Source of the DNA: Pyrenula massariospora
Taxonomy: Eukaryota > Ascomycota > Eurotiomycetes > Pyrenulales > Pyrenulaceae
Assembly: GCA_021030905.1 (NCBI GenBank)
Contig: JAGFMI010000009.1
Span: forward strand, 1,116,001-1,180,000
Length of the DNA: 64,000 bases
Direction of reading: 5' to 3'
The translations under genes were made by a program, and so were the position numbers. Numbering within the stretch: the stretch's first letter is position 1; each line of letters opens with the position of its first letter. Under the pieces are notes generated by a model. The model ran no database searches. It was not told the origin of the DNA and saw nothing but the letters and a program-made list of their open reading frames with translations. Below, piece by piece: positions 17,086 to 43,497 of the stretch.

Positions 17086-17931
17086 TCGCTTCAACAGCGT
17101 CTGCATAAGGGGGTCTTTTTTTCTCAAATTTTCATAGAGCAAGATGGGATGTACGATACTGGACATGTCTCTTCTCTTTCGAACATGGCGCTTGTGCGAT
17201 GGACGAGCATTAGCGGGAACATGAAATCGTGATGGCAATCTTGATCGTTACAGCGCGGTGCTTGCAATAGTCGATATCATTTTCGGTGGCGGTCAGTTCC
17301 AAGGAGGGCTTTTTGCTGGGATCCAGTCGTTCTACTATACGCTATAATGCTTTCACTTTTATAGAAGGACCGTGAAAGATAGCGCAAGATCGGTCTCTTA
17401 ATGAGGAACGTTGCCTGATTAGATTAAGCATTTAAGGAAGCTCATCGTAGTCCTAGGTCGTTCACACTCCTATATTTGTCTTCTAGACTATAAGGATTTC
17501 AAAGAATCAATTCTAGGGCCATCTCTAATGTCTCACGTTCCCCGAAGCCTCGCTTCTATTTCGCGACGAATTGCCTCGATGGAGCCTTAATAAATAATGG
17601 GTGCTGGTCTAGTCATAGCATTTCACGGTCTAACGACTTTGGCGTTCAGAACATCCTTCACTGCCATAATTCGAGATAGTAGAGATCAAATATGACCACC
17701 GACATGCATTTCGGGCGGTCGAAAAAATAGGTAAGGTATGAGGGTCTCCTCCTGCGCTCCGGATAACTTTTCCTGTTTGGGCTAATGCAAACCAAGCAAA
17801 CAACAGATTAGACTGGATCCCAAACATGCAAGACATGTGACTGAGAAAGTGCGCTATCTAGTGCGGCGGCCCACAAAACACCAATTACCAGATTGCTAGT
17901 TCCAAAATCCTACTCTTTGTCTGGCAAAGGT
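17086..17931. other. gene-poor stretch after the F-box-like gene
   Basis: About 850 bp with no convincing gene on either strand; it contains the 3' UTR of the F-box-like gene and leads into the stem-loop repeat tract. Confidence 0.5.
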
Positions 17932-18278
17932 GTAACAGTCTGCGGGCTGTTACGATTGCCTTTCCCCTCCCCCTTGCGAGAGTTTGAGTGTCTGCGGGCA
18001 CTCATATCATCTCTCGCCCTCCCACAATACGAGTTCTCGCGTAGGCGAAATTCGATACAGAATATTTCAATCTGGTGTTACCAGTATCTTCAATTGAGTG
18101 CGCGACAGTCTGCGGCCTGTTGCCATCTCTTCCCTCTTCTCCTTCGGGAGAGTGTGACAGTCTGCGGGCTATCACTATTCCCTCTCCCTCCCTTTGTGAG
18201 AGTTTGAGTGTCTGCGGGCACTCATATCACCTCTTACCTCTCACCCAAGACGAGTTCTCGCGCAGGCGAAACTCGATA
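17932..18278 (+). repeat. tandem stem-loop leader-like repeat (two copies, period about 220 bp)
   Basis: Two diverged copies of one unit. Stem-loops with an almost constant loop TCTGCGG(G) lie at 17932-17953 (stem GTAACAG/CTGTTAC), 17986-18003 (GAGTG/CACTC), 18102-18123 (GCGACAG/CTGTTGC, one G.U), 18154-18175 (GTGACAG/CTATCAC, one mismatch on this strand) and 18206-18223 (GAGTG/CACTC). After the GAGTG/CACTC hairpins, at a fixed distance, comes a double palindrome: CGAG-TT-CTCG joined by CG(T/C)AGG to CGAA...TCGATA, at 18029-18057 and 18250-18278. The spacers are pyrimidine-rich. The same composite module occurs at 32443-32509, just before an ORF start. No known transposon or RNA family is recognised. 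Confidence 0.75.
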
Positions 18279-20724
18279 AATATTTCAATCTGGTCTTACC
18301 GGTATCTTCAGTTCAATGTGTGGCAGTCTGGATGGCGGATCCCGATAGAAAAAATCTGAATCTGGTTCAACTGTTTTCTTCAAAACCAAGTCTATGAAAG
18401 CTGGATGGCAGTGGAGACTTGAGGCTTTCAACAAACAGAAAGCTCAAATACTGTCTGGACCGAGACTGGAAGCCAATGACTAACATCACAAACCTCTTGA
18501 AGAGTGACGTGAAAAGTATCATGGAGAGTAACGTCATGAGGAAGACGAGGCAGGTAAATTGCTCGACTATGGGGCCACTGGATGCTGACATCGAGAAGGC
18601 CCTTGGGAATATGACGCTCTGGAGGGAGATGAAGACGTGCGGGAGAATGAAGCACTAGAGGACGGGATGCCCTCAGGGCGAATAGCGCTCCGAGAGTTGA
18701 TTAACATGGTATCCAGGGCTAGCAGACCAGTGCCATCGGCAGCTTTCTTTCTTGACTTTCACTACCGGGAAGAATCGCACATCCGCCTGAATGACACCTC
18801 GAGCTTTTCCGTTTCCCAAATCCCTAGAGCCGACTGAAAACTAGACGAGGTACTTCTCCTCTAGCAGCAAGGTCTCAATATTGAGCAGCGTTCTCATCCC
18901 CTTGGCAGCGCTCAGCGCGCCCTCACCGCTGGAGCTGCCTCCGGCCGAGAGTAGGCTGACCAAGGATAGCTTGCGAAGGTAGACGCTTGAGCGAAAAATC
19001 GTAGCTCACGCTCGATTTAGTGAAGAATGCATCCTTCAAATCACCAAAAACCAAGGCGTCAAAGACCGGCCCATCTGTGTGTCTACGACATAGCTCCGCC
19101 CCTCGCGCCCAAGTCGACTGCCCTCGGTGCATCAGACTCCAAGTCCCAGAAGCGTGAGGAGAAGACCCTCCTGCAATCAGGCGATCCAGCGATGTTCACC
19201 TACATCTAGTCTAGCCGAAGCAGGATGTTAATCACGGCCGGAGTTCTTCAGATGATGAGGATCAACAAAGTTGTGGGAGAACTTCACCAAGGAACCCCGA
19301 AGCAGTTGATTTCAACGCCATGGACGTAAATACCATGGCGCAAGAGGGACTTACGACTGACCTGTCCTGCCGACTCTAATGCAGATCAACACCCTCTGCT
19401 CCGTGAGAAATGGCGAGAAAAATGCTCCGTCCGAACCAGGCGTGTACAGGGCATTCAGTCCAATTCTCTGAGGACCAAGGATACATGAGTTGAGGAGGAT
19501 GCCGTCGAGCTCGACGCGAACGCCTCTTTCGAGCATTGCCATATGCCACTGTCTTGGGTCACCATCCGCTTTACGTGGGAGCAATCCAGCAGTAATACCT
19601 GCAACATCTCGAACACGCACCGTTATGGGTAAGATCATCAGGTACCGACTGTGGCATCAAGGGCTTAGAACATCTAACCTTTGAGAACGATACTACGGCC
19701 GTCAATTAGCACATACTGCGCGAAGGAGACTGACAAGGTCTTAAACGCTCAGAACACAAGGATTCGAGTGTGGAAAAGGTGTTTCAGCGTCTGCAAATCT
19801 ATGCTTTGAAGACAGGAGGAGCACAAGCAGAGTCTGACCAAAGAGGTCAATTCTCAGCGACTCATCAACTTCGATAGGAGTTTAGCGGCCGCGTGTTTAC
19901 AGAGCAAAATGATCTTCTGACATTGTTCATACTAGGCACAGCAAAAAAGACTTGTGCAATCTACGATAGCTATGGAGATATCCAGTTGAGAGAGTCTGTC
20001 GACATGCGTTTCTGGACCTTCGGTCATCTCGAAGAGTAGAAGGACGAGGAGGGAACACCTCACGGAGGTCAACTCATGGGTAAAAGCACTGTTGACTTCA
20101 CCATTCCAGCATTCCATATGATCGGAAACACATGCATGTTCAGTACGTGTACTCGGATCAAGAATCCTTGAGGATGTTCTGAGAATAATGTTGGGAAGCC
20201 GACATTAATGGAGAAGATTTGCTCACAGGCTTGCTGGACGGGTTCCAGGGAAACTACAGCAATATTCAGAAGGGTCCAAATTGTTCTGATGCGAAAGAAC
20301 TCGGAGAGAGTTATGGCCTTAGCTTTGCCCGACAACAACAATATTAGATGCTCGCTGGAGCGCCGTATTGGAATAGCTGGAACCAGGGACTTCAATCGCT
20401 GAGAATTGAGCTGATTTCTGGTGGCAATCATTCAAATTCTCAGCAGGATGATCTCCGGCCTTTTGGCCCGGCGTCATCCGCTCGTATACTTATTGTCGCA
20501 CAGATTACCGGTGAGGCATTCAGGATCCTTGATCTCGGGCATCTACATGTGTCCCTCCAATCGCAACCTATCACGTGCCATGACCCCTCTTTCACCGCAC
20601 TGTCCTCTCTCAACATCGCTGGTATGATATTCGTCCTCCTCTCTCTCCTGTTATAATCACTAATCTAACAGTCTAGGCGTCCTTCGCAGACAGATAACAC
20701 TTTCACTTTTACAGACTTGTCAAC
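18279..20724. other. gene-poor, decayed region
   Basis: About 2.4 kb with only short interrupted open frames. On the plus strand 18398-18837 reads as one frame with several stops, including a stretch beginning ALEGDEDVRENEALEDG; on the minus strand 18839-18990 encodes a protein-like tail ending LLLEEKYLV followed by a stop; and 19351-19638 (minus) has an uninterrupted 95-codon frame. These look like remnants of lost genes, but none matches a family I can name. The position just downstream of the stem-loop repeat makes a decayed gene of the kind seen at 32.5 kb possible. Confidence 0.4.
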
Positions 20725-21856
20725 ATGGATACCTTTTCCAAGAGAGTATCTCTCCTGGTGGCTTTGGTAGGAATTCTCAGCCTTGTATGCTTTGAATGCA
20801 CTGCTGACAAGACGAATGGCCAGCTGTTCGCCATCTCAACTGCCCTTCCAGCGTAGGTCTTTCCACAACCACGCCGTATCTCTCGTCTTTGCTCACGCTC
20901 ACCTCCGTTCTAGCATATCCTGGTCGATCCACGCCACATTCAACCTCCCACTACCTCTCCCCATAACCGCCGTCAGCACATTTCTTCCTCTCTTCTCAGC
21001 CTTAGTACTTGGTCTCGCCAGCATCTCTCCACGTCATTCCAGCTCGCATGGTCATCCTCTCATCAACATCCTCACCTTTATCCACCAGCGACTCCCACAT
21101 ATCCTACCTATCCTTCTCACAATCGCCCCAGTAGCCCTATTCACCCTCTCCCTTGTATATATTCTTCCCTCACCTCTCTCAGCCTGCGCTCTCGAATCCC
21201 ACTGGGCCAATCTCTTTCGCACCAAGAATAGCGCTGCCGTTCGTGCCATCGAGCTCGGCCTGCATTGTTGCGGCTTCAACTCCGTCCAGGACCGAGCGTG
21301 GCCCTTCCAAGGGGGTGGCGTCGATGCATGGGAATGTCATCGAGCGCTGGGATTTGACCAGCCATGCAGGGATCTGTGGGCCAGGGAGGAGAGGAGAGCC
21401 GGCGCGCTTGTTGCAGTGGGGACGGTGGGGACGTGGGGCTTCGTTGTAAGTCGATCTCATTATCGTCTGCTAGTGGTGGTGGCGGATGGATTGGATTGAC
21501 TGGGCTGTGCATTTATTTGAGTTCTCATCTAAAAATTGCTGCTAACGTAGTTGGGTTGTTAGGTGATCGTTCTTTATCTCCTCAGGATACGCATGCAGCA
21601 GCAGACTTGGATGGGAAAGGGGAACCATAATAATGATCCAGAAAGACAGAGACTCGTAAGCGGGACAAGGTCAGGACTGAGACAGATTGAAGAATATAGG
21701 GATGAGGATGGAGAGGAAAATGGATCTGATGCGGAGCATAATCGGTCGTCAAATAACAGACCGCAGCTCATCGAAGGGGACGGAGAGCCATGGGATGAGG
21801 AACAGCCTCAGAATTCTGGCGGAGCGTCAACGGTACATATTTCCAGTCTCCGCTGA
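20725..21856 (+). CDS. fungal tetraspanin (Tsp3-like)
   Basis: Four-pass membrane protein of the fungal tetraspanin group, linked in other fungi to membrane organisation and, for Pls1, appressorium function. Exons are 20725-20784, 20824-20852, 20914-21445 and 21563-21856 (304 aa); introns 39, 61 and 117 nt, all GT-AG, the first with a CTGAC branch. TM1 (VSLLVALVGILSLLFAIS) is only formed by splicing exons 1 and 2. TM2 is near 48-66 and TM3 near 93-115. The large extracellular loop holds the hallmark C148-C149-G150 followed by FNSVQDRAWPF, plus C171 and C181, and a preceding CALESHW...F..KN pattern typical of Tsp3. TM4 (LVAVGTVGTWGFVVIVLYLL) is completed by the last exon. The cytosolic tail is acidic. 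Tail-to-tail with DPH2, only 39 bp between stops. Confidence 0.85.
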
Positions 21857-21895
21857 GGACTGTTCTCGGTAGCCGGATGAAGGCCAGATCCGCCG

Positions 21896-23713
21896 CTATC
21901 TCCGCCCTTCCTCTTCTCCAACGACATATCCCCTCGCTACGCCTCTCCTTCCTTCTTTCATCAGGCCGCCTTCTTGTGCTCTATTCACTTCATCCTCTTC
22001 ATATGCTATCTCAAAGTCGCTCCCCAGCCCCTTCCATATACGATTCTGTTTCAAAAACTCTGCACCGGGCGATATTGCGCCGCGTATGGAGGCAACGTCG
22101 CCATTGGCTCGTTTCGTCAGGGCATTCGATTTTTCATTCACACCATTTGAAGAGGATATCTTTCGAGCTGTTTGCTGGACTGGTCGGGAGTGCGAGACAT
22201 ATCTTCCAGTACGTAGATCGAACTCCGGAGGCGCAGATTCAGGTTCGGAATCGAAGTCATGCTGTCCCGTAATACCATCGCCATTGACATCAACATCGCT
22301 TCTCTTGTCTTCATTAGACTTCTCTTCCTCATCTCCCACAGAACCAGCTCCATGTACCCTCTCATCCCCAAACCTCTCCATCAACCACCCAAAATCCCCC
22401 CTCCACTCCCCCGTCCAAATCCTCTCCTTATCTCCCCGCAAACAAAGCTCCAGCTCAAACGGCGTAATCACAGGCCTGTAGAAATCCCGACTCTCGACCA
22501 AGCTGCTCTCCCAACAGCCAACCACGACCCAGCCGCCTACCTCCGCAAAGTTAGCCACCTTAGCCGCGTTTAGCTTTCCGACAACAAATGTGTAGCTCTT
22601 CTTTCCCGCGTCGGCGATGAGGGTCCGGATGCGTCCGACCATGTCTTGGTAGTTTTCGACGGAGAGGGTGTTGACGAGGATGCCCCAGATTGGGACTGTG
22701 GTTAGGGAGGTGACGAGGGCGTAGCGTCGGCGGAGGAGGGTGGGGGTGTTGGTCACCTCCGTTACGTCTGTGGTCGGGAGGTTACTTGTTGGTACTGAAG
22801 AGGTCGTGTTCGTAGAATAAATATGCACGCCCTTTACTCGACTCGCCAGGGTGAGCAGCAGCGCCGTGGGCGGCTCCGAGATGTGGAATATCTCCCACTC
22901 CCGCAAGTCCATGTCTCCCTCTTGATCTCCGCCCAGCTGGCCAAGGACTCTCCGGTTTGGCACCGATGCCCCCGGGTCTCGCACCACCCCGGTGCCTCGC
23001 ACCATTTCGTACCCTTCCCCCTTCAACCTCCCCACTAAACGTCCAACATGCCCCTCATACGGAACATCCGCCACGACCACCACCCTCCCATCCTTCTCCG
23101 GAAAAGTCTCCCCAAACGCGCGCACCACCGCGTCAAGGTCGAGCGGCTGCACGGTAAACACATGGAGCACCGGCAAGCGGGAAGTGGGCGACAGACACGC
23201 GCGGCCGTAATGCACGACGCCATCGGCGTCGACGTGGGACGCGGCGATCTCGTCGACGCAGCAGGGCGAGTAGGATGTGTCTGCTAGGATGAAAAACTTG
23301 GGCGGCGGAACATCGGAGGTTGGGTTGAGATTTAGATTTGCGACAGTCGTCGTCGTTGACGACGCCGCATCAGATGCGCTTGGCACTGCAGGTTCCGAGG
23401 ATTTCACGTCAGAACTTGGGGGATTGCCATTTGTATTCTGGGCGCTGTGATGGCCGCTGTCCACCGCCCTGCGGCTCAGCAGTCGGTACACCTGCGGGGC
23501 ATCGGGGAGCATCTCGTCGGGGAACTGGAGGGCGATGCGCTTCCATTTCTGGGCGCGGATCTCGCGGATGGTGCGTTCGATTTCGTATTTTGTGATTAGT
23601 TCCTCGTCAGAGGCGGGGATTGGGGCGGCTTTCTTCACGGCTGGGAGGGTCTCGTTGAGGATGTGGGTTTCTGGAGTTGAGAGGATGGGTGGTGCGCCGA
23701 GGGGTGTTGCCAT
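21896..23713 (-). CDS. DPH2: diphthamide biosynthesis protein 2 (Dph2)
   Basis: Subunit of the Dph1-Dph2 radical-SAM-type [4Fe-4S] enzyme, which transfers a 3-amino-3-carboxypropyl group from S-adenosylmethionine to a histidine of elongation factor 2, the first step of diphthamide synthesis. Single exon, 605 aa. Visible are the N-terminal helix and strand YEIERTIREIRAQKWKRIAL then QFPDEMLPDAPQVYRLL (about 43-79); the first-domain SYSPCCVDEIAA with C151/C152; HYGRACLSP with C173; the second-domain ADVPYEGHV; and in the third domain VVGCWESSL with C400. Clusters in eukaryotic Dph2 are held by Cys residues of this kind. Low-complexity inserts (about 82-135 and 445-520) make it longer than the yeast protein. 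A conserved housekeeping gene; call is firm. Confidence 0.93.
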   Translation of the reverse strand: MATPLGAPPILSTPETHILNETLPAVKKAAPIPASDEELITKYEIERTIREIRAQKWKRIALQFPDEMLPDAPQVYRLLSRRAVDSGHHSAQNTNGNPPSSDVKSSEPAVPSASDAASSTTTTVANLNLNPTSDVPPPKFFILADTSYSPCCVDEIAASHVDADGVVHYGRACLSPTSRLPVLHVFTVQPLDLDAVVRAFGETFPEKDGRVVVVADVPYEGHVGRLVGRLKGEGYEMVRGTGVVRDPGASVPNRRVLGQLGGDQEGDMDLREWEIFHISEPPTALLLTLASRVKGVHIYSTNTTSSVPTSNLPTTDVTEVTNTPTLLRRRYALVTSLTTVPIWGILVNTLSVENYQDMVGRIRTLIADAGKKSYTFVVGKLNAAKVANFAEVGGWVVVGCWESSLVESRDFYRPVITPFELELCLRGDKERIWTGEWRGDFGWLMERFGDERVHGAGSVGDEEEKSNEDKRSDVDVNGDGITGQHDFDSEPESAPPEFDLRTGRYVSHSRPVQQTARKISSSNGVNEKSNALTKRANGDVASIRGAISPGAEFLKQNRIWKGLGSDFEIAYEEDEVNRAQEGGLMKEGRRGVARGYVVGEEEGRR

Positions 23714-23973
23714 GTTTAAAATAAAGTAGAGGGTCCAGATGTATGTTTACTCGGACATACACAGTCGATCTATGTATGTGAGTTTTAGAATAAAATGATG
23801 CACAATTTTAGTTCGTTTTGGTGCGTAATAGTTTCTAAATTTCTAATACTAGGTGGCGAATTTTCCGCTCCGCCCCGCGCCAAGACCACTTTCTAACGTG
23901 GTATGCCTACAAGATCAAGGCGAGGTGTGAGAAGTCATGGCGCAGGTTAACTTGTGATTATCACAAGTATAAA

Positions 23974-25092
23974 TCAAGGCTTGATATTCTCTACCGCCCA
24001 CTTCATAGTCTTCTGGATCGCTGCATCCTGATTAATTAGCGGCTGGTACCCTAATCGCTCTTTCGCTTTCTCAATCGACCAGCAACACCCCCCGTCCAAG
24101 TGATCAATGTCCTGCCTCCGCATCTGAGGCTTCTTCGTACCTAAGGTGAAGATCCAGTAAAGCCATTCTCCTGTTGATGCCATTGCTTGAATCATCCCAA
24201 GGGGCATCTTCTTTACATCTTCTGGTTTGACAGGCGCACCAGCAGCAGCGTAGCACTTGCGCAGGAAGTCAAAAAAGGGTATTGCCTTGCCGTCACTGAT
24301 AAAGTACGCCTCGCCATCCGGATTCTGTCCTGTACTATTTTGTCCTGTGCTGCTGTCGGCGCGTAAAAGTGCTTTAGCCGCACATAAATGTGCTTCTGCG
24401 GCACTTTCAACATACAGAAATTCGAATACTTTCTCGTTATTACCAAGCTGAATCTTATGCTCGCCTTTATGAAAACTCGCCATAATATGCGGAATGAAGT
24501 TGTTATCGTTTTCGCCGTAGATGCCTGGAACCCGCAGCGTTGCTGTACGCAGTTCAGCCCCATTAGCCGCTAGAACCAATCTTTCTGCAGCTGCTTTTGA
24601 CCTCCCATAAGGATTATTGTAAGTCGTGTCATCCCACAACTGCGCCCGATCCTCAGTCAAAAGCTGCTGGCTTGGCCTTTGTGCCGAGTCCGAACTCGTG
24701 TACACAAAAGCCCTTGTCTCCTTACACGCCTTTGCATACTTCAGCAATACCCGTGTACCCTCCACATTCGCACGCTGCAGTACATTGGCATCACTCGTGT
24801 GCTTGGGCGATGCAGCGTGAAAAACAACCTGCGGCTTCAAGTCCCGAAAGAGCGCGGCCACAGCGGCATCATCCGCAACATCCACACTGTGGTAGGTCGT
24901 CCTCGAATCAGTGTGCTGCTGCTGCTGGTTTCGGCTGGCGGCGGCGCTACGGCTAACGATGGCGACGGCCTCGGGGAGGGCTGCTGGGTCTTCCATGAGC
25001 CGCCGGACAATGTGCGCGCCGAGGAATCCACGGCCGCCTGTCACAAGGACGGTGTGGAAAGGCTCCACGCTGCTGTTTTGGATGGCGGCCAT
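23974..25092 (-). CDS. Erg26-like NAD(P)-dependent sterol dehydrogenase / 3beta-HSD family
   Basis: Single-exon protein of 372 aa, an extended SDR of the sterol-4alpha-carboxylate 3-dehydrogenase type. The coenzyme motif T18-GGRGFLG25 follows strand 1, the acidic VDVADD block lies near 70, the catalytic Y162-GRS-K166 is preceded by YTSSDS (about 131-136), and the mid-protein VPGIYGENDNNFIPHIM is the family hallmark. The C-terminal half has a hydrophobic helix-rich segment ending in ERLGYQPLINQDAAIQKTMK. In yeast Erg26 removes the C4 carboxyl group from sterol intermediates at the endoplasmic reticulum; here the Ser/Ala-rich N-terminus and the existence of a second paralogue at 1737-2926 suggest a specialised rather than housekeeping member. 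Divergent from the SDR gene at 26076 across about 980 bp. Confidence 0.85.
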   Translation of the reverse strand: MAAIQNSSVEPFHTVLVTGGRGFLGAHIVRRLMEDPAALPEAVAIVSRSAAASRNQQQQHTDSRTTYHSVDVADDAAVAALFRDLKPQVVFHAASPKHTSDANVLQRANVEGTRVLLKYAKACKETRAFVYTSSDSAQRPSQQLLTEDRAQLWDDTTYNNPYGRSKAAAERLVLAANGAELRTATLRVPGIYGENDNNFIPHIMASFHKGEHKIQLGNNEKVFEFLYVESAAEAHLCAAKALLRADSSTGQNSTGQNPDGEAYFISDGKAIPFFDFLRKCYAAAGAPVKPEDVKKMPLGMIQAMASTGEWLYWIFTLGTKKPQMRRQDIDHLDGGCCWSIEKAKERLGYQPLINQDAAIQKTMKWAVENIKP

Positions 25093-26075
25093 CGGCCGAT
25101 ATAGGTATGGGTGAGTATGTTGGTAGAGTGGACCTGATGTATGGGTCTTTGATCAACAGCTGAGACTGCTCAAGTCTGCAATGGTATGGGGATATTGTGA
25201 ATGTACGCCGCAATAATGAAAGTGCAAGTAGAGACTGAGGCTAGGTAACAAGCGAAACATCAGATACCTAGGTACTCTACCGCGAAGTTGGTCAGGGGAG
25301 AGGGAGTGACGGCCACGGAGCTGGTGCGGGAGGCATTGGCGGGGATCTAGGAGGGATGGGCGAGGTCGAGTTCGACGCGCCCGGCTTCTTATACCATGCC
25401 AGCTCGTTGATCCTAGCTCTCAAGTAATCAATGGCCTCACGAGGAGGATCCGGGCGTGACGCCGCAGCATATGGCGTACAATTCATCGCCCGTGTTCAGC
25501 GGACGTGCCGGAGCTGTGCCGGAGCTGTACCCGGGCGGCGCGATCCATGTCACCCGCAGCCGCAGGCGCTCCGGAGAATCGATGCCGAGCTACGGATGAA
25601 GCAAATGCTTACAAAGGAAGCTATTTACTTTACGGCGAGATCAGCAACTCAAATTATAGCAATGATACTGAAGCCACATCTTTCAGCAGATGGATATTGC
25701 TGGCGGCCGCCCGTACGCCCGTCAAGTGACCATAAATTAAGGTACTGCTCCATCCAAAGTTCACACAATGGTGAGCGGAAATCTCTCTAGATGTAACTCA
25801 TGCCAAGAAACTTCTTCAAACGACCAAATATGCGACACCTCCATCCAGGAGCTGTTCTAAAATAAGGAAAAGTACACGAAATCTAACGTCAGCGCAGGTG
25901 CATCATTTGATGTTACTCCGGGTTACTCTTCGCAGCCGAGAGCTGCAGGTGCGCTACACGTGACAAAGACAAGCTCCGAAGTAGCGGCTTCTGGATAGTC
26001 CCACAACTGCTCATGTATATTTGGCCATAAGTTTCTTCATCTTCGCCCATTTCCCTCAAAAGCCGTCGGAGCAAA
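25093..26075. promoter_or_regulatory. divergent intergenic region, Erg26-like / SDR
   Basis: About 980 bp between two divergently transcribed oxidoreductases. A small minus-strand frame at 25292-25486 (64 codons, ending in a Pro-rich tail) is possible but unsupported. A TATA-like TGTATATTTGG lies about 65 bp before the SDR start. Confidence 0.4.
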
Positions 26076-27133
26076 ATGTCAAAGCCAACCGTCCTCATAA
26101 CCGGCTGCAGCCAAGGCGGCATCGGCGACGCTCTCGCCCAAGAATTCGCCTCTCACGGCTACCACGTCTTCGCGAGCGTCCGCGACCCCAGCAAAGCCGC
26201 ACACTTTTCCAACAACTCGTCCATCGAGATTATAGCACTGGACGTGACGGCACCAGAATCAATCGAACGCGCAGCCAGTGAACTAAAAGATCGTCTACCA
26301 GAAGGTAGACTTGACATTCTGGTAAACAATGCTGGTTTTGGAGCCAGAGGTCCCCTGATCGAGGCGGATCTTGCGACGGCGAAAGCCATTTACGATGTAA
26401 ACGTGTTGGGTGTTTTGGCGGTGACGCAGGCGTTTGTGCCGATGCTCATAAAGGCCAAAGGAAAGGTAGTGAATATCAGCAGTGTTGGGGGCTTGTTGGC
26501 CATGCCATGGGGAGGCAAGTAGATATTTCCTTGTTTCACTATGTGCTTGATATGTTTGGACCATTGAGCAAGACCCTTTTCAGTCTGCGAACAAGGCCAG
26601 ATAGGCATACATCTCGCTTGGTGGGAAATCGCTCGGAACTGGGACAGAGCAGGACTAACGTTTCTCCATGGCCGTAGGTCTCTATCACTCTTCCAAAGCC
26701 GCTGTCACCATTCTCAGCGAGACCCTCCGCCTTGAGCTCGCCCCATTGGGCGTAACAGTCATTACAGGCATGCTAGGCCATATTGAATCCAATTTCCACG
26801 ACAACGACCATTGGAAGGGTCTTCCGGAGTCTTCCCGTTACAAATCTGTTGAGCTGCAGATAGCAAAGAGTGCCTCGAAGGAAGTCGATTCGAAAATTGA
26901 AAATCTCGAGGACTTTGCAAAGCGTTTCGTGAAGGATATCCTTGGGGGTGCGACAGGGCAGGTTTGGAGAGGGGCGAGGGCGCAGACTATCAGGCTTTTG
27001 GGCTACCATGCGCCGAGAAGTCTCTGGGTGAGTAACCGTCATTTGAAGGCATTAACAAGCCTAGAGCTGACAGGAGAGAAAGGACCCCTTGTTGATTTCC
27101 GGAAGTGGACTGGATGTCATGGGAAAGGATTAA
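26076..27133 (+). CDS. short-chain dehydrogenase/reductase (classical SDR)
   Basis: NADP(H)-type classical SDR, 282 aa. Exons are 26076-26514, 26678-27027 and 27074-27133. The first intron (26515-26677, 163 nt) begins with GCAAGT, the consensus GC donor, has a perfect ACTAAC branch and ends GTAG; no GT donor keeps the frame, and GC splicing gives MPWGG/LYHSSKAA. The second (46 nt) turns a rambling frame into a typical SDR ending (ERKDPLLISGSGLDVMGKD). Motifs are TGCSQGGIG (residues 9-17), NNAG (84-87), the catalytic Ser in NISSVGG (about 135), and Y149-HSS-K153. The family resembles 1-acyldihydroxyacetone-phosphate reductase-like SDRs (Ayr1), but the substrate is not readable. Neighbours are an Erg26-like dehydrogenase upstream (divergent) and a Zn2Cys6 regulator downstream (convergent). 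Confidence 0.88.
26515..26677 (+). other. GC-AG intron in the SDR gene
   Basis: Donor GCAAGT (the optimal GC-type donor), branch ACTAAC, acceptor GTAG. Joining 26514 to 26678 restores the SDR catalytic-loop sequence; no GT donor in the vicinity does. Confidence 0.8.
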
Positions 27134-27761
27134 GGAAAGACATGGAAAGATTTCATTGCTCAATGCGAATTTTGGGCCAGCTAGACATCATGCAAAATAG
27201 ATTCTAGCCTAGGCGGGGCGTCAAAGTTTATCTGAGACACCAGTCTTCGCTTGACAGCAGAATGTGGACAGAGCGTAAAGCTCCAGCGACTGCTCCTAGA
27301 ACCCAACCCTCTTCACACCTCTTGACGTCTTTTCTGTTGTTCAGGAAAAGGCACGTTCGACAAAGTAGTCGCCGCGTCGTATGCGAAAGACGGATAATGA
27401 TTTCCTGCATCCGTTATCCCCTGAGGAGCGAACTGAGCTCCACGATCTCCCAAGAAAGCCATCTCGGAGCTCTCCTCAGAGATCGGTGGCAGTGATCGGC
27501 TTTGGTAGTTGTACGTTTTCGTGTGAATATCAAATTCTGGGACCGGTGACTTGGAGTCTGGGCGAGACACGACCAGGTTTCGCATCGGGCCGCGTTCAAT
27601 GTTCTCGCGACAAATGCAAAGGCCGTCGTGAGGGAAGAGGATGCCCTGGCACCCACCGTAGCGTAGTGAGAGAGGTGTAATCTGTCAAGGACAACAAAAT
27701 TAGCTAGGCGTCTGCGGCAGCTAAGTTCAGACTACTTAATGCAGAGGGTTCAATAGACATT
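27134..27761. other. convergent intergenic region
   Basis: About 630 bp between the 3' ends of the SDR gene (+) and the Zn2Cys6 gene (-). Overlapping short frames on both strands, no recognisable gene. Confidence 0.5.
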
Positions 27762-29940
27762 TCATGGTTTTGCGAACTTTTTTTTCGCAAAATACTTGGC
27801 TGACTTTACCACTGTCGCTTCACTAGAATAGAACCTTGCACGGATATGGATGGGGTCCTCGGTAGAACTTACAATAGGAATTGCGCCGACCTTGTCATCA
27901 CAAAGTTTGGGCCATGGAATCCGGTCCAGCTCGATGTCTTGTGGGTCAGCGTCGTACGGATAGTGCTGCATATGTAAAACAGCATCATTGTCCTGGAAAA
28001 CGTGATCGGCCTGTAAGAGCCTTACACGGCTTGCGTGAGGGATATCCCTGCGGCTTGCCATACTAGTAAGCCCACGTTCTTCGATGAGTATGACTCGTTC
28101 GGCAATATTCGCTGCTGTGCACGTATCCCACAGACTCTCGGTGTGATGGGAGCATTGAAGGAGTGCAAGTGCCTCCCGCCGAAGGATCGGATCGCGACAT
28201 TTCGTGGCAGTCCAGAACAGGGGAGAAATTAAACCTAAAGAGGCATTTGTTCGAACCGAATCCGAGTAGAACACCTTTCGACAGCTCTCAACCAAGAAAC
28301 GAAAGTCCTCAATATAGTCATCAAAATGCATCTCGTTATATGCACAGCGATTGTTTAGCAACATTTTCAGTAATTTATGGTGTGCATAAAACAGAATAGC
28401 ATCTTCATCCCTGGCTGCATCAGGTGGAGAGTCCTGGTGATACGCATGAAAGGCTGTAAGCCACGCATCAAGAGCATGGTTTATGTCACTTCGCAGGTCG
28501 AGAGGGATCACTTCATCCTTGCATGCTTGCGGATCTTCATGCGCGGCAATAATCCATGAAAAGATCCTGGACAGAGATTGTCGAGGCCCTGATCTGTTGT
28601 TAAAGGAAGTGTCGGGGATCGTCTTTCGAAATTTGCTGTCTCCCGGCTTGATTACATCTGAGAACATAGAGCATTGTTCACGAACACTGTCAAAGATTGG
28701 TCGTACATGGTTCTTGAAGAGATCGGAGACGTCGTTAGCAGGCGTTCTCGATGGTTTAGCGGTAGTTTGGTATTCCACTATCAATTTTATGCCATTTGTG
28801 GTGTGAGCAAACTACTCAAATGTTTAGTGATCATCCAGGAAATAGTGAATATTTGCCTAGGGAAGAGCCTTGTTTGATTTAAATCGTAAAGGGGCTTGAA
28901 AGGTCAAGGATGTTAACGGGGGTGGGGAAGTGCAAATCAGCTCACCTCTCTCTGAGATCGATAGTCTTCAAGGGCGATAAACAAAAGGCAGGCGACCAGG
29001 ACTATCTCAACTGGTGGGACTTGTCCTACTTTGGTCAAGCTTTTCATGGCTTTGGTGTAGTGGAGCATTGACAGTTTGACTTGATGATCTGACCATTTGG
29101 GGTCAACTCTCCGGGATAGCGCAAGACATCCAAGGGATATAAGCCCGTGACTAGCAGCAACTCGATCAACCACTTGTGTGGCACAAAGATGTCGATACCC
29201 TTACCGTATGACAGGGTATGAACCGCTGATTTTTTGGGCTAGTCCCTTCCAAAGACCATAATCCCAGAACGAGGCAAGTGCATCGGAGGTGCTACTTTCA
29301 AAGAATTGTACTGACATGTACTCGTCTGGAGATTCGGATCCTCCGAGCAGGTGTGACGGACCAGACCATCTTGAGATAGATGCAGCGTCATCTAGTTCCG
29401 CATGTTGGCTGGGTCCTTTTTCGCGTCTAGCAGCCCCTCCTTCTGTCTCGGCCTGATCCCTTTTAGAATTGTGCGGCTCAAATAACCATATTTTAGGCGT
29501 CGCATAGCCATCACATTTTCTCCCAGTAGAGGTGCATCGATGACAAGACGGCTTTCCTATTAAGGCAATTGACAACCATGGTCAGCAAAAAATATTACAC
29601 TTTACTGGCCGAGACAAGCATGCTGAGTTGACAATAGTTCTCAACCTCTAAGACGCATCACTGGACCCGTCATCGCTACTGACCTTCATCGCATTTTACA
29701 CGCCGCTGTCTGTTGGCCAGCCATCGTTAGATCACATTTTCAGGCGGGAAAAGTACTTTCTATAGGTCGGGATCTTACTTGCACGTCAAGCAGCCACTGA
29801 TTCACCGTCAGCACTTCGTATATACACTGAAAGGCTAGCTCATACCTCCGAACTTTAGAATGATATGTTTTTCGACGGTCCTTCTTTTTAGCTGGAATCG
29901 GAATCCCGTCCCCAGTTTCGGGACAGCTCGTGGAACTCAT
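27762..29940 (-). CDS. Zn2Cys6 transcription factor with fungal-specific regulatory domain
   Basis: Fungal binuclear-zinc-cluster regulator, 581 aa. Six exons: 29846-29940, 29779-29796 (18 nt), 29684-29709 (26 nt), 29205-29556, 28946-29150 and 27762-28811. The two micro-exons rebuild the DNA-binding domain exactly: GCLTCKQRRVKCDEGKPSC, then HRC...C, with ligands C34, C37, C44, C51, C54 and C61 (C-x2-C-x6-C-x6-C-x2-C-x6-C). Basic residues around position 18-30 precede it (KKKDRRK). The middle-homology region is recognisable across the exon 4/5 junction (PVIR/HGLISLGCLAL) and the exon 5/6 junction (ALEDYRSQRE/FAHTTNGIKLI), consistent with the Fungal_trans_2 family. All introns are GT-AG (49, 69, 127, 54, 134 nt). 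It may control the adjacent SDR and Erg26-like genes; that is inference from proximity. Confidence 0.88.
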
Positions 29941-31244
29941 GGCGTTGGTAAGTCGATGAGATACAGGTCATAGCATCACAATGCATGCGCTTCGGAACGA
30001 GGAAAGCGACGCCAGTGTGCGAGGAGGCAGGCCAACGGTTTTGTGTCAGTTCCAGAGCCTCCCCAGCTGGTATTACCGGGAGATGCATGTAGGATGACCG
30101 TTTTGATATTAATAATCAGTGACGTCGCCCGATTCGCCAAAATCAGAGATGCTGCTGAGTGTTTGTTCCATCGCGCCATAGTTCTGGTTGTCCGAAGAAC
30201 GACAAGATTAAGGTCAGATGTCGAAAAATCTACCTAGTCCATGCTGGTCATCCGGGAAGGACACGCTTCTGTGCGAACTATCCTATCGGTACATGAGCCG
30301 AACCGTCTAGGGAACGCCCCACTGCTCTGGGGGCGAAAATGCTGCAAGCGGTGACCAGGCCCGTGGACGACCGCGCACGCCACGCACACCAGAAGGATCA
30401 AAGGGCTGAGAGGCGCTTGGGAGACTCACATAGATTTCGGAAATGATGAAGATATTATCGCGGAAATCATTTCCGCATATTCTTTTGATGATTAACGAAG
30501 AGCAGCCCTGTGCAGCTCGATTGGGTCTCGGTTTTCGGATCTTTAACTGTACGTGTTCGGGCTAGCACTAACCACTGCGGTACGTTCGAACACCTCATAG
30601 AGCCACCTCTGAAGCCTTTCAATCCAGGCTTTTCCATGTCGCCGATACTCTCACTGATCTCCGGATGAGCTTCAATGAGAAATTGTCTTCTCAGAGAGTC
30701 TTTTCATTCTTTTATCGCGAAGGATCCTCGCGAGCTCCATTGGCTTTGTCCCGCGTCTTTGATCCTTGAAGGTAAGTATTTTCCTTGCCTGTTTAAAAGC
30801 TGAAATTCGAAGCTAGTATAGAAATCATGACGCCAGCTCGGGCCTCTTGGCCCGATTATCAGGTTAGCTGGTAGGTAGTGCAACGACTTTTGTACCGCAG
30901 CCTCAATGACAATACAAAACATGATCTAGGTATTTCTGCCATGCGCTGGAAGATCTCTAGAGAAAAGCAACAACTCTCATTTCTGGGATGGATTGCGCTT
31001 TTTTCCAAGAATCGATATGTAGTTCAAGGAAATGTCCTCAATTCTACACTAAGCTTTTTGCGACGTTTTCTCATCATCATCCTCATGATATCAAGTTTCA
31101 TCGAGAAGTCGACAGAGGGAGAAGGTTTTGATTTTCATTGATGAAAATTCACTTGGTAAGCAGAATCAAGCCGTGAAACATTCTCATACTTTATTACCCA
31201 TCGTCTGAAATTCGTCACATGTCCGCCCTGGCCTTTTCTCCTGC
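29941..31244. other. gene-poor stretch
   Basis: About 1.3 kb upstream of the Zn2Cys6 gene. Only short frames; no gene, tRNA or repeat could be supported. Confidence 0.5.
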
Positions 31245-31915
31245 TCAGCATCTTCGAATTAGCTCACGCATCTCGTCTTTCTCAAGCGGTCTTGGACCGG
31301 AATATCGCGCCTGAGCTGCAATCTCTGCTATCTTTTCGACATCGCCTCCCTTCATCCTAAAACTCTCTAATCGATCTCCATCTTCATATGTCCAGCGGCA
31401 GATTCAGCCCTTGAGTGGGGCTGCTATCGCTGCCGGAAAATGCTTGAGCAATCTTGTCCAGCGTATCCATTGGTAATGTCGGTGCGTTATACGATAAGAC
31501 ATGCGGTAATACTATTGTATGTGTTTCCGCATGTGAAAGATCGAAAGTTCCACCGTGTACGGCAAAGCTTGTGATGTAAGCCCATACCTACGCTTCCAAG
31601 GCAATGCCCGCACGAATGTCCGTCTTGAAGGGCCTTCTCACGCGCCTGCTTTTCTTTGTCACTCGTCGCCCTTGGGTCAGCAACCACATCTAGAAGTGGA
31701 GTTGCAAGGGAGCTCATAACCTCGACAGCGAGCAACTTGATGATTGGATTCGTCGTCTTCGAATGTAGAGCTTCAACAGTATGTGCGACAATGACTGCGA
31801 GACCCTATTTTAGGCGCGGAGGCGTCTAGAAGACTTTACTACCTCTCGCCGTCAGCAGGGTGAGTTCCAGATGACGAGCCCGATGGACAAAGGAACAGAG
31901 TCATGACATCAAAAC
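31245..31915 (-). pseudogene. maleylacetate reductase pseudogene, C-terminal half
   Basis: Remnant of an iron-containing alcohol dehydrogenase-type maleylacetate reductase, which reduces maleylacetate to 3-oxoadipate in hydroxyquinol/resorcinol catabolism. Recognisable pieces in order on the minus strand are FDVMTL, then AVIVAHTVEALHSKTTNPII, DGHSCGHCLGSVGMGLHHKL with the metal-site HHK, a shifted frame with GGTFDLSHAETHTIVLPHVL including the second His site, and a C-terminal YSGPRPLEKDEMRELIRRC followed by a stop at 31245-31247. At least two frameshifts and several stops interrupt it. The N-terminal half is 12.4 kb away at 44275-44710 in the same orientation, so one gene was split by inserted DNA. 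Confidence 0.85.
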
Positions 31916-32314
31916 GCAAACGTTGAACAAGCTTTTCTGCATTCTAATCCACAACCACTTGCTAAGTTGGAGAAGCGCATGATCGTGGCACAAATGCACA
32001 ATGAGTTGATCAGAAATCGCATTCGGGAGTTGGGATAGTCTCGCTATCCTGTGTTGGGACCAAATGTGTCTGGTACTCTTTATCGTTCTCATTCCTTCTT
32101 CACTGATAAGAAGCACTAACTTAGGAAAGGTCTTTTGTCACTGTCTTAGCTTGATTCACCCTTGCTTCAGCTCCAATGTTCACAATTGTAGTCTTGTGTT
32201 TGCAGTATCACGTGCTGCCAAAGTCGCGCTAGTGATTGGAAACCTATCGCTGACCACTTTCGCCGCACAGAATATTCTTTTCACCTTTTCACACACAACT
32301 CCATATTCTTGTTT
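31916..32314. other. left flank of the insertion in the broken gene
   Basis: About 400 bp between the pseudogene breakpoint and the first leader hairpin. No gene recognised. No terminal inverted repeat matching the right boundary (about 44240-44275) could be seen by eye. Confidence 0.4.
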
Positions 32315-32514
32315 ACAGTAGTTTTATCTACTGTATACGCTTTTTTCGGCTGCCTTGCTCCCCCCGGAGCTTATTTTGTTTTCTTTTCTTGCTATAGCTC
32401 CTTTTTGGGGCTATAGTCCTCCCAACACCTGGCACGGATTGGTCTGCGGGCCATTCCACCGCCAGGTTTCCTCCCTTTTTACGAGGTCTCGCGTAGGCGA
32501 ACTTCGATACTAAT
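32315..32514 (+). promoter_or_regulatory. structured leader upstream of the coiled-coil gene
   Basis: A 200-bp stretch dense in perfect inverted repeats: ACAGTAG/CTACTGT (32315-32334), GCTCC/GGAGC (32357-32370), CTATAGC/GCTATAG (32392-32416), and ACCTGGC/GCCAGGT (32427-32467), which encloses TGG-TCTGCGGG-CCA. Then, 38 nt from the TCTGCGGG, the double palindrome CGAG-GT-CTCG / CGAA..TTCGATA at 32481-32509 ends five bases before the ATG at 32515. Order and spacing match the two copies at 17986-18057 and 18206-18278. It could act as DNA (factor sites) or as 5' UTR RNA structure. Confidence 0.65.
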
Positions 32515-34521
32515 ATGTCTTCTCCATCTACCTCGCAGATCCCGCGAGGTTTTTGCGCTTCGAAAGATTGCAAGATAGCTCGCTATAGCGAGTTGCTTGT
32601 TGTTTCTGAGAACGATGAAAAGCTTCGTGAGGACCTCGAAGCAAAAAAGAACCAGGAAATCCTGGATATCCAAAAGGAGCTCGATGATATGACCGAAAAG
32701 TCCGATGGATGGCATCAGTGGGCCCTTCAGCAGGAGAAGAGAGCCTACGACATACAGTGCGAGAGCCTGAAGGTGAAAGAAAAAATGGAAGAATTAGAGC
32801 AGCAAGTGAAAGGCTATGACGCTCTTAAAGACAAGATGGAGAGTTTAGAAATTCGGCTCAAACATGTTGACCTTGCAGCCGACGGCGTTGAAGGGGCTGA
32901 TTTCGACGACAAAGCGAAAAAGGTCCTTTATCTACATCAGACACGATCCACAGTCATCAAAGAGACGAAAAGCCAAAACAGGGAGATACAACGTCTGAAA
33001 GAGAAGACACAAGTGGCAGATAAACAGCTCCATTCTTTGAACCAAGATCTGCACAGGCGTGACGCCGAATGCAGGGGCCTAAGAGTTCAGATTGCAAAGC
33101 TTGAGAACGAGATCGCCGCCTTGAAAAAGGAAAAGAAGCAGGGTCCACCTCAAGCTGCACCTCGTTCTTTCCCTCAAACTCCACTTCAGCGGCAGTCAAA
33201 TTCAACTCCAACCGGAAAAGCAAAGGACAAGCTGGACACTCGACCCGGGGCAGCACAAGGCGGGAGCTTAGGAGGCGGTGTAAAAGCGTTGGAGCAACCA
33301 GAGCCAAAACCAGAGCAACCAAAAGACTATGCAAGCGCGGCGGTGGGACAGAAATTGCCTGAAATGGAGCGGGCGGTAAAAAGAACTAGGCAGGTCGATA
33401 CAATTGTCATAAGGCCTGCTGGATTGGTCAATCAGTCCGAGGGTAGGGGACCAGCACAGGCTGAGCCATCTGGAAAAGCTGAAACTTGGGATGACTTTGT
33501 GTTTGCAGCACAAGAGTTCGAGAATTACAGGCGATCCCAAGCTACTGCCACGGCACAGGCTCCATCAGTCACGCGGACACAAACATTCAGCGAAACCATA
33601 TCCAAGGAAATACGCAAAGGCCAAAGGCAGTAGATGGAGGCCTTGGAAAAAGCTTGCCAAAATGAAGGTTCTACAGCCAGCGTTGAGCCACAGTCAACCG
33701 TGAGAACAGACGACAAGAAGGACTTTCTAGCTCTGGCTGAACCTAAACAGCAGGCCGAGGCCGAGAGACCTAATATCCTGACCTTCCCTTCAGGAAAGGA
33801 CAGGACTGCGTCTAAGGAGCCCGAGAAGCCAGAGAAATCTGATGAAGAGCTTTGCCGGCTCAGAGAAAAACTCTGGAAGATGAAGTATGCTCTGGATTAT
33901 CTGAAAGAAGGTCCGACCAAGACAGAGACTATTCCTGAAGTCAAAGGCAAATCTCAAGCCCTGTTGCTGGAGGAGGAGCTGCAAGTCTTCGAAGAACCAC
34001 AATCGAAGAAAGTGGAGAAGGATTCTAAGGCTAGAGAACGAGATCTAAAATCAGGTGAGAAAGAAGAGCCTGAAAATTCTCATGATGTTCCTGCTAACTT
34101 AGGATCCGCTCCTCTAGAAGTTGGCATCGAAGGCAAGGTCGATACTGCCAAAGAATCTGTGACCGCCAGGGATACAAATGTCCCTTTCGAGCAGTGCGGA
34201 GACGATAAGGTCGAGACTCTAGAAGATTCTGGGAGGACTAAAAATCTAGAGCTCAAGGATGCTCCTCTTCCTCGGTCTGATCCCACCCCTCGTCCTGAGC
34301 CTGTAAATACTGATTCTACAGGAACTATATCAGGGAAACCGAAGCCAGAGAAATCTTCAGCACCGGAAACCCCACGGCAGAAGGACCCTGCTTCTGGACA
34401 ACCAGGAGGAACGCTTCATCCTCCACGGAGTGAGCCATCCACCAGTGTTACAGGCACAAGAGGAGGTCCGAAAGGTTATCGCGGCAACCTTTGCGGAAGG
34501 AATCGAGGCAGAGGAATGTGA
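32515..34521 (+). CDS. coiled-coil protein of unknown function, one in-frame TAG
   Basis: A 669-codon frame interrupted by a single TAG at 33631-33633, followed at once by ATG in the same frame. Part 1 (372 aa) starts MSSPSTSQIPRGFCASKDC and is dominated by heptad-rich coiled coil (about 30-215: ELLVVSENDEKLREDLEAKK, and VADKQLHSLNQDLHRRDAEC); a Pro/Gln-rich linker follows. Part 2 (295 aa) is acidic and Lys/Pro-rich with another short coil (DEELCRLREKLWKMKYALDY) and ends in a Gly/Arg-rich patch (GYRGNLCGRNRGRGM). Possible readings are a nonsense mutation, read-through, or two cistrons. No intron covers the stop. I do not recognise the family. The gene lies inside the DNA that splits the maleylacetate reductase gene, behind a structured leader, so it may belong to an accessory or mobile unit. 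Confidence 0.55.
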
Positions 34522-36507
34522 AGTGGATGAGTTGCAATTTTTGGTAAGCTCCTTCCGCGCAGGTACGAGTATGGAAGACGATGTAATAACTGCAACAGGA
34601 AAAAAGATCTTATAACTGCAATACGAAAGAAGATGTTATTACTGCAACGCGGAAGAAGATGTCATGATCAGGCTCAGCCTCAGCCTCAACCTCAACCACG
34701 GGCTCAAGTGCAAGCTCAATCAGCTGCTCATTCAGCCTACGCAGTGCAGCGAATGAATGCCTACAACCAGCCGCAGCATCCGCAGGGACCTCCAATTCAC
34801 AGATGTGATGACTGCAACACGGAGGAAGATAGTGCACCGGTGAGCCAAGACTGTGGACTTTACAAAGCAGAGATGGACGACAATACAACACGTGGGGTGA
34901 TGGTTGCGGAAGACAATGCGTCCACTTGTGGAGCGGAGCAAGGATTCCCACCCAGAATCCGCGTCCAGTCAGAGACATGGGCAGATCATTGCAACTTCCT
35001 ACTTGGGCGAGTATGTGTCGTCTACAGAAGATCCAGGAGTATCTGGCCCGAAGACAGAACAGGCGCCACTATGGTACCATCTTGGACCAAGTCAGCAAAG
35101 ACTGCCTGGTAGTACGCTACGTTGCTCAGTCAACTCCCTTGCATACCCGTCCCGGTACTATTCGGACATGGATGGGGCCGATGAAAAGAATCCCGAAATG
35201 AGATGATGGTACGTCATATCATCGATGAGATGCGGATGTGGAAACACACAGCGCATATCACCTATGCCGTGAACATCGAAGCACCGATCTTCTTGTTCAA
35301 CATATAGCGCTTATCACCTGTGCCGTGAATATTGAAGCGGTAGTCTTTTCCTCGAAACTCTCCGGGTCAATGAGCAGAACTATGGGAAATTCTCTTTATT
35401 CCTTATGGAGAGAACTGCTTCAATTCCTGCCCAGGCTGTATTTTAAAGAGCTCGGCGAAATCTTTGACTACTAGCAGCAACATATTTACTGTGCTTCCGC
35501 TGCTCCACCACATTGATCTCAGCACGGTAATCTGTGGACTCAGAGACCTTGAAAAACGTTATACAGATATCGAATGACACGTCGACCATAATTTGACCGA
35601 GACGATCGCCAACCATTTCCTACCCATTAAGGCGGCTTTGAAGGTCTATTTCCTATGGCGCAACAGCCAGCTTTCGGATCTCCCCCGACCTTGCTCGCTA
35701 TAGTCCTGCTCCCGATCCGCGCATGGGCTGGCCTTGTCAAGGATCTCAGCCTAAATCGATAGATTACGATGTCTATCCTCACACTTCTTTCATATAGGAC
35801 ACATGGGGCGGACCCTATCCTTCCCAAGCAAGAGAAAGTCGAAGATCAAAATCCGGTCACCGACCTTCCCCAAGCGAGATGTACGGTCGTATACAAAGCC
35901 TCAACCGGAATACCAGCCAGATCTTCGATCTTCTACAAGCCTGCCAGCGGGTACATCATTCCAGAAATTGGATGGTACGTCCTCAACCTAGATATCTTCG
36001 GCTTCAGCGAAATCTTCGATCTCTTAACAGCCTATCAGCGGGTACGTCATATCATCCTCTATGCTGATAACTCTCCCTAACGCCATCGCTTCAGATCCTT
36101 GCCTGTTTAACATGCCAATAACAGAAAGAACATTGACTTTCCATCAATGCTGGACGCTCCATGAGCTGGTACGGGTCAACACAGTGAGAGTAAGCGCAAT
36201 GGCAGAAAATTTTGCTGAGACTGCCATAAAAATTGGGGGAATTTCAGCCAAGATCATGGGCTTCACAGCGCCAAATATGGACAAAAATACTACACATGTG
36301 GCCACGAATGCGGAAGACAATGCAATAAATGCAATGAAGAGACGGTGCGCTTGTGAGCCTCGATCAGAAGCTTTACAAAACAAGGTACAGCCTGCAACAC
36401 AACACAACATATGTGGCTCAGGGCGCGGAAGGCAATGATATGAAGAGAAGAAAGACTGCACAAAGGGACGGTGTTTACGTGAATCGAGACCTCCAATTTT
36501 ATGTATC
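34522..36507. repeat. tract of degenerate short repeats with Cys-rich relics
   Basis: No intact gene. Contents: about three 27-29 bp tandem copies at 34577-34665 (a GAAGATGT..ATAACTGCAAC pattern); a pair of 33-bp direct repeats at 35250-35282 and 35306-35338; a pair of about 36-bp repeats near 35926 and 36014 ending CAGCGGGTACRTCA. One plus-strand frame near 36294-36350 reads CGHECGRQCNKC, and near 34803-34820 another reads CDDC, suggesting decayed Cys-rich modules downstream of the coiled-coil gene. All are interrupted by stops. Confidence 0.5.
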
Positions 36508-36794
36508 AAAAGACAGACAACTTCAAAGATAGATAATTTTAAAAATAGATAATTTTAAAAACAGATAATTTTAAAAATAGATAATTTTAAAAACAGATAA
36601 TTTTAAAAACAGATAATTTTAAAAATAGATAATTTTAAAAATAAATAATTTTAAAAATAAATAATTTTAAAAACAGATAATTTTAAAAACAGATAATTTT
36701 AAAAATAAATAATTTTAAAAATAAATAATTTTAAAAATAGATAATTTTAAAGATAGATAATTTTAAGGACAGATAATTTTAAAAACAGACAACT
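36508..36794 (+). repeat. 16-bp minisatellite, left part
   Basis: Tandem array of a 16-bp unit. The outermost units read like AAAGACAGACAACTTC. Nearer the retrotransposon they become AGATAATTTTAAAAAC, i.e. the same unit with C-to-T and G-to-A changes. It ends in CAACT, the left copy of the element's target-site duplication. The array resumes on the other side of the element at 43498. Confidence 0.9.
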
Positions 36795-37186
36795 TGTTAC
36801 GTAGATACTTCTAGATTATTGAAAGATATTTATATAGATTGGTTCTTAAAAGATAATTTAAAATTAAATTAAAAAAAAAATATTTATAAAGAGTTATAAA
36901 AATAATTTAATATTTTTATAACTAACTAAATATTTAGCTATTTAAGTTGAATATATTTTTATATTTTTAGAAAATGTGAAATTATTTTTTATATATTTTA
37001 AAATAATTAGCTGTGATTAATTTTACTTTTAATATAAAAATTTAATTATTTTTTTTTTAATATTAAAAATAATTAGTCGCGTTTATATATAGTATTTTTA
37101 ATTATTTTTAATTTAATTATATAATTATCCTCGAATATTTTTTTCTATAAATAATAATTAATGTGCTTTGTTTAATAGCCGCAATA
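36795..37186 (-). repeat. LTR (3' LTR in element orientation)
   Basis: Begins TGTTACGTAG on the plus strand and ends GCAATA. Read on the minus strand it therefore starts TATTGC (ancestral TG changed to TA) and ends GTAACA. Aligns with 43102-43492 over its full length. Confidence 0.88.
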
Positions 37187-43100: not shown

Positions 43101-43101
43101 A

Positions 43102-43492
43102 TATTATGTAGATATTTTTAGATTACCGGAAAATATTTATATAAATTAGTTCTTAAAAAATAATTTAAAATTAAATCAAAAAAAGAATATTTGTGAAAAG
43201 TTATAAAAATAATTTAATATTTTTATAACTAACTAGATATTTAATTATTTAAATTAAATATATTTTTATATCTTTAAAAAGTGCGAGGTCATTTTTTATA
43301 TATTTTAAAATAATTAACTATAATTAATTTTACTTTTAATATAAAAATTTAATTATTTTTTTTCAATATTAAAAATAATCAGTTATATTTATATATAGTA
43401 TTTTTAATTATTTTTAATCTAATTATATAATTATTTTTAAATATCTTTTCCTATAAGTAATAATTGATATGCTTTGCTTGATAGCTGCAATA
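43102..43492 (-). repeat. LTR (5' LTR in element orientation)
   Basis: Begins TATTATGTAG and ends GCAATA on the plus strand; full-length match to 36795-37186 with RIP-type transitions. Followed by CAATT, the right copy of the target duplication. Confidence 0.88.
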
Positions 43493-43497
43493 CAATT

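Follow-up and report, generated by a model that had tools for sequence, protein, structure and literature searches.

A 64,000-nucleotide (nt) stretch of the Pyrenula massariospora genome (C33:1116001-1180000, hereafter the window; the genome comprises 37.8 Mb in 33 contigs) carries a recurrent module that is predicted to fold, as RNA, into two consecutive hairpins, HP1 and HP2. The loops and the layout of HP2 are fixed, the stems carry compensatory changes, and a fourth copy is found on another contig. Selection of some kind at the RNA level, whether for control in cis or for a stand-alone noncoding RNA (ncRNA), is the probable cause of this conservation. The module is a new structured-RNA candidate, whose function we infer. 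The initial annotation of the stretch, which proposed a dispersed leader module built of an octamer and a double palindrome, is partly supported as a whole: a functional element is supported in the form of a structured RNA and disfavoured in the form of paired factor sites on DNA.

Architecture of the module

The octamer TCTGCGGG is located at 17991, 18211 and 32443, and the 29-nt sequence (29-mer) that follows it starts at 18029, 18250 and 32481, confirming the distances of 38, 39 and 38 nt reported initially. The octamer is found six times in the window compared to 1.67 expected; the occurrence at 50980 has no comparable stem. The 29-mer is absent from each of 100 shuffles. It had been described as a double palindrome, but it folds as a single hairpin, HP2.

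In HP1 an internal loop separates an outer from an inner stem, and the octamer follows at the top, with UCUGCGGG capping the stem. Within the octamer the letters U-C can pair with G-G, leaving UGCG as the tip. HP2 has 6 base pairs (bp), one bulged base on the 5' side, a further 4 bp and a tetraloop GYAG (GUAG or GCAG), and is followed by AUA. The linkers between HP1 and HP2 are 67%, 62% and 93% pyrimidine.

The region at 17.9-18.3 kb is an array of five HP1s and two HP2s. Three of these HP1s, with loops at 17939, 18161 and 18109 (the last with the variant loop TCTGCGGC), had been missed in the initial annotation. The 29-mers at 18029 and 18250 belong to a tandem duplication with an offset of 218-221 nt, and the window therefore holds two independent occurrences of the module. 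A covariance model, R1, was built from the six HP1s of the window. In the window it recovers these six hairpins, by construction, and one weak match on the reverse strand. The hairpins of the two loci are as follows (scores are for R1; z is the fold z-score).

17922..17965, + strand: HP1, array copy 1, loop TCTGCGGG at 17939 (fold; 52.4 bits; z -4.18)
17974..18017, + strand: HP1, array copy 2, loop at 17991, partner of HP2-A (fold; 53.6 bits)
18030..18058, + strand: HP2-A, with tetraloop GTAG on 4 bp, below these a bulged C and 6 bp; ATAC follows (fold, pairing counts)
18072..18084, + strand: HP3-A, small hairpin CTGGT-GTT-ACCAG (fold, duplicate alignment)
18092..18132, + strand: HP1, array copy 3; its loop at 18109 is the variant TCTGCGGC and its outer stem pairs poorly (fold; 40.2 bits)
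18144..18187, + strand: HP1, array copy 4, loop at 18161 (fold; 50.9 bits)
18194..18237, + strand: HP1, array copy 5, loop at 18211, partner of HP2-B (fold; 53.3 bits)
18251..18278, + strand: HP2-B, loop GCAG, then ATA (fold, pairing counts)
18290..18302, + strand: HP3-B, small hairpin CTGGT-CTT-ACCGG (forms when the full length is folded, but not in the span-60 fold)
32315..32334, + strand: leader hairpin ACAGTAG-TTTTAT-CTACTGT (fold)
32392..32416, + strand: leader hairpin with 10-bp arms and loop TTTTT (fold)
32426..32468, + strand: HP1-C, loop at 32443, outer stem ACCTGGC/GCCAGGT (37.2 bits; fold)
32482..32510, + strand: HP2-C, then ATAC; the hairpin ends 8 nt before an ATG (fold, pairing counts)

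Covariation and a fourth copy

The covariation evidence for the module is strong but not final. In the four copies of HP2 all 40 pair cells are standard, compared to 17.5-52.5% in slid controls, and five of the ten pairs are changed on both sides. Neither the paired percentage nor the covariation score is reached by any of 500 shuffles; the number of further pair types is unexceptional (311 of 500 shuffles). In the six HP1s of the window 86.2% of the cells are paired, against 36.8-51.8% when slid, and 6 of 15 pairs are changed on both sides. This latter count is not extreme (52 of 500 shuffles), whereas the covariation score is (0 of 500). The tandem duplicates (17991/18211 together with HP2-A and HP2-B) differ by one compensatory pair, CG to TA, and by two one-sided changes that keep the pairing. 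The non-standard pairs of HP2 and of the HP1 inner stems, read on the + strand, comprise 10 G-U, one A-C and three other mismatches; a single recurrent U-G pair makes up 6 of the 10 G-U. Folds of the cut-out modules have z-scores of -3.1 to -5.3.

The core GTCTGCGGGC occurs at 70 sites in the genome, five of them in the window, and the surroundings of all 70 were folded. At one site on another contig (C15:148,959) an HP1-like stem is accompanied by an HP2 of identical layout. The distance from loop start to loop start is 53 nt there, compared to 49, 50 and 49 nt in the window. The arms of this HP2 are CAGAGT/GCTCTG and CCAC/GTGG, the bulge is T, the tip GTAG and the tail ATAC; it differs from the window HP2s at 10-13 of the 20 stem letters, while the layout, the loop and the AUAC tail are kept. 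The locus was chosen on HP1 alone. A model built from the three window HP2s only (R3), with the C15 copy held out, scores the C15 HP2 at 26.8 bits with an E-value, rough as in all these covariance-model searches, of 3.5e-5 (188 kb, 41 sources), its top match outside the window; the runner-up, at 17.9 bits, is at a locus chosen for that very core. R1, likewise made without the C15 copy, finds the C15 HP1 at E 0.0043 within the 7-kb locus.

Among the 65 GTCTGCGGGC sites outside the window, only that on C15 is paired with an HP2 of loop CGYAGG at 36-66 nt. Conversely, when 232 distinct CGYAGG sites were examined, in DNA partly selected for such cores, all 9 of 9 further pairs were present in the four HP2s only, with 8 in one other site and 7 in seven. 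The 29-mer, with up to 3 mismatches, has three matches in the genome, all in the window. Two looser genome patterns were also searched. The first, a composite, gave 16 matches compared to 7 in a reversed control, and four of them are real after stem checks; the second gave 17 against 20 in the control, again with four real ones in the matched text and no excess past these. Modules or HP2s with other loops would escape these searches. The 22-nt core has three exact matches in bacterial collections and none in viral ones, which in 257 Gb we attribute to chance.

An array of other hairpins, spaced mostly in 70-nt steps, precedes the fourth module at C15:148289-148839 (L104:1790-2340). Several of its units carry the motif TYACTGA, and their bulged stems end in C(AYAA)G tips. 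The array has no DNA match elsewhere in the genome. Pfam gave one match for six ORFs of the C15 locus, at E 0.46, below its cut-off. A search for hairpins of this type gave 12 matches, five of them in the array itself; of the other seven, four were inspected (two folded, two by eye) and none is alike.

The apical loops of the two module hairpins are complementary, as expected of kissing loops. UCUGCG and CGYAGG can pair at six of six consecutive positions when G-U is counted. The energy model forms five of these pairs, and shuffled loops reach six in about 2% of cases. The loops hardly vary between copies, and both GUAG and GCAG pair with the HP1 loop. Pairing of HP1 with HP2 through their loops is put forward as a proposal that rests on this complementarity.

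Possible role and competing explanations

The module may act as a docking or control element in cis, in the transcripts that would carry it, a role that we favour tentatively and at somewhat less than even confidence. Selection on RNA shape would keep the two hairpins, of which HP1 would present UCUGCGGG and HP2 would present GYAG, carried by a bulged stem and followed by AUA. Both loops, possibly after pairing with each other, would be read by a factor acting in trans, for which an RNA-binding protein is the likeliest candidate. At 32.5 kb the module would form the end of a 5' leader, 8 nt before the AUG of an open reading frame (ORF) of 372 amino acids (aa), and would gate the access of ribosomes. 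This ATG, at 32515, is five bases past the end of the 29-mer, as had been noted; it is the first ATG past 32300, and the preceding 215 nt are free of ATG. Two ORFs follow, and a single TAG, with an ATG directly after it, separates them.

32515..33633, + strand: ORF of 372 aa, coiled-coil-like (Pfam below cut-off), one genome copy found
33634..34521, + strand: ORF of 295 aa in the same frame, directly after the TAG of the 372-aa ORF

A number of observations weigh against this interpretation. The structure of the alignment (A1) was named after the folds had been seen, and four copies, two of them tandem duplicates (three lineages), are thin for covariation. The HP1 at 18161 has an A-C mismatch, and in that at 18109 the U-G pair is lost, as is much of the outer stem. 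In 150-nt windows the loci rank 8th, 12th, 13th and 19th of 1704 by z-score, behind some unrelated stretches. The HP1 on C15 is not distinctive alone: its E-value over 92 sources is 0.11, and 7 of 8 flanking pairs are likewise present at a further GTCTGCGGGC site among the 70 (L025). The 372-aa ORF ends in the in-frame TAG, and a search of the protein collection gave no homologue of it or of the 295-aa ORF at E <=0.001. Finally, one of the four modules, at one of the three loci, precedes a sizeable ORF. Within 2.4 kb past the others on the + strand the longest ATG ORF, read in unspliced sequence, is 102 aa (18 kb) or 137 aa (C15); a 238-aa ORF starts at 20783. Consistent placement before gene starts was not found, and the designation as a leader would hold for the 32.5-kb locus but not for the 18-kb and C15 loci.

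Alternatively, the module could be a domain of stand-alone multi-hairpin ncRNAs, in which case the 18-kb and C15 arrays would be the real genes and the 32.5-kb ORF would be there by chance or would have been acquired later. This is possible, if rather doubtful. It accords with the three modules that have no ATG ORF above 137 aa within 2.4 kb downstream, with the tandem arrangement of hairpins at 18 kb and with the additional hairpins of another kind that C15 carries in an array of mostly 70-nt steps. What speaks against it is that the third module sits so close to the ATG at 32515 and that the 215 nt before this position contain no ATG.

Two other explanations concern the DNA itself and draw on mosaics of exon pieces found downstream of both window loci. 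The pieces are 71-88% identical to seven unlinked source genes of the same genome.

18712..19156, no strand assigned: mosaic of three exon pieces, C2-domain gene antisense, GPAT and Prp28-like genes sense
18712-18813: exon piece from C30, C2 domain, 82%
19004-19085: exon piece from C32, GPAT, 88%
19080-19156: exon piece from C27, Prp28-like, 87%
34669..36040, + strand: mosaic of exon pieces of four unlinked genes, all sense
34669-34801: exon piece from C28, 83%
34989-35143: exon piece from C14, 83%
35224-35576 and 35960-36040: exon pieces from C12, DUF7730, 71-82%
35584-35900: exon piece from C24, 85%

Between the GPAT and Prp28-like pieces there is an overlap of 6 nt. As judged by the long open frames of the sources, six of the seven source genes are sense with respect to the + strand. 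The genome searches for exon pieces score the best candidates only; they gave no exon pieces at E <=0.01 in the rest of 18.3-20.7 kb or in 28.8-34.6 kb. The Prp28-like, GPAT and DUF7730 genes are elsewhere in the assembly, and the window contains a gene for a diphthamide-synthesis protein; these genes point to a filamentous ascomycete. Beyond the second mosaic lies a block of 15% G+C (36400-43900; the rest of the window has about 50%). Close to each of its ends there are 16-nt tandem arrays, and it contains two direct repeats of 281 nt (36776 and 43083) that are 86% alike. A long imperfect inverted repeat on the - strand at 50251-50400 has the lowest fold z-score of the window (-5.15, first of 1704) and matches neither the HP1 nor the HP2 model.

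Replication template switching at small palindromes might keep or remake the stems at the DNA level, with no function of the RNA. It is described as a mechanism that makes and maintains hairpins together with compensatory changes (PMC8794818), and the mosaics with their 6-nt overlap suggest template jumps nearby. It leaves unexplained the identical loops in both hairpins, the fixed HP2 bulge and the AUA tail across loci, and the excess of G-U over A-C on the + strand, 10 to 1 (few independent events), also argues against it. As the explanation of the module it is improbable; it could help the stems stay paired.

It is similarly unlikely that the module is the by-product of a repeat or transposon family, for instance the worn 5' end of a gene-capturing element. 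The mosaics after two loci and the tandem duplication of the 18-kb pair would fit such an origin. However, in blastn at E <0.5 only some 40 nt are common to 17.5-20.7 kb and 31.5-36.4 kb, the 29-mer occurs in the genome three times and only in the window, and the 18-kb array (17925-18350) and the C15 array with its module match only themselves at E up to 10. Neither a transposase nor a reverse transcriptase was found in the seven ORFs tested. Full-length copies at several loci were not found. A repeat conserved over its full length, which the initial annotation had named as the observation that would demote the module, is thus confined to the 18-kb pair and does not extend between loci.

A promoter with paired transcription-factor sites in its DNA, as first suggested, is hardly credible. 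The palindromic look and the pyrimidine-rich spacers, which are common in fungal promoters, are in keeping with it, but the C15 HP2 differs at 10-13 of 20 stem letters and keeps its pairing, bulge position and loop, which a binding site would hardly tolerate. The recurrent U-G pair and the compensation between changes in the stems disfavour it further.

Known RNAs and significance of the module

None of 4227 Rfam families matches the window at its gathering score. Permissive scans of the three loci gave two weak matches, cyano-S1 (E 0.3) and Ocean-V (E 0.24), both far below the gathering scores, and otherwise none. UNCG tetraloop hairpins are a general class, and HP1 can close in this manner as C(UGCG)G; its recurrent U-G pair and flanking G-C exceed the general tetraloop. 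H/ACA small nucleolar RNAs have two hairpins, an H box and a 3' ACA box. This identity was rejected: by eye, ACA follows HP2 in only two of the four copies, the 25-nt HP2 has no pocket loop, and there is no Rfam match. The ends of Helitrons consist of a hairpin followed by CTRR, which by eye fits the 32-kb copy only, and this identity was rejected as well.

Structured fungal RNAs have been recognised by covariation in untranslated regions (UTRs), introns and intergenic regions, and those linked to mRNAs are restricted to a subphylum or smaller group (PMC8216456; Gao, Jones and Rivas 2021). The present module resembles them as a structured candidate recognised by covariation, but unlike those families it is known from one genome only. 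In the sections consulted, PMC8216456 describes neither tandem hairpins nor a two-hairpin module with these loops, and none of the words tetraloop, kissing, tandem, bulge or loop motif occurs in its main text. In the literature at large no fungal RNA element was among the matches listed for the octamer string, and no described equivalent of the module was met in the part covered, which does not preclude one elsewhere.

The RNA of Ty1 is described as having two hairpins near its 5' end with complementary apices (PMC5454406), and this precedent means that fungal RNAs can use complementary hairpin tips near the 5' end. Ty1, however, is a long terminal repeat retrotransposon that has a pseudoknot and whose 7-nt motifs were tested by mutants (PMC5454406), whereas the 6-nt complementarity described here is deduced from the loops and the ORFs tested contain no retroelement genes. 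Membership in this group is not claimed.

A bolder reading, speculative and quite improbable, takes the module as a new class of fungal RNA, in which a kissing-loop fold of HP1 and HP2 would be a shared tag at loci where new genes are put together from exon pieces of unlinked mRNAs, and one factor would control or recruit all such transcripts. To our knowledge, few structured regulatory RNAs are known in fungi. Stems that are rewritten while loops, bulge and spacing stay are a strong lead to an RNA-binding factor and its targets. The neighbouring exon mosaics and an ORF lacking known relatives may offer an entry to how new fungal genes gain control elements.

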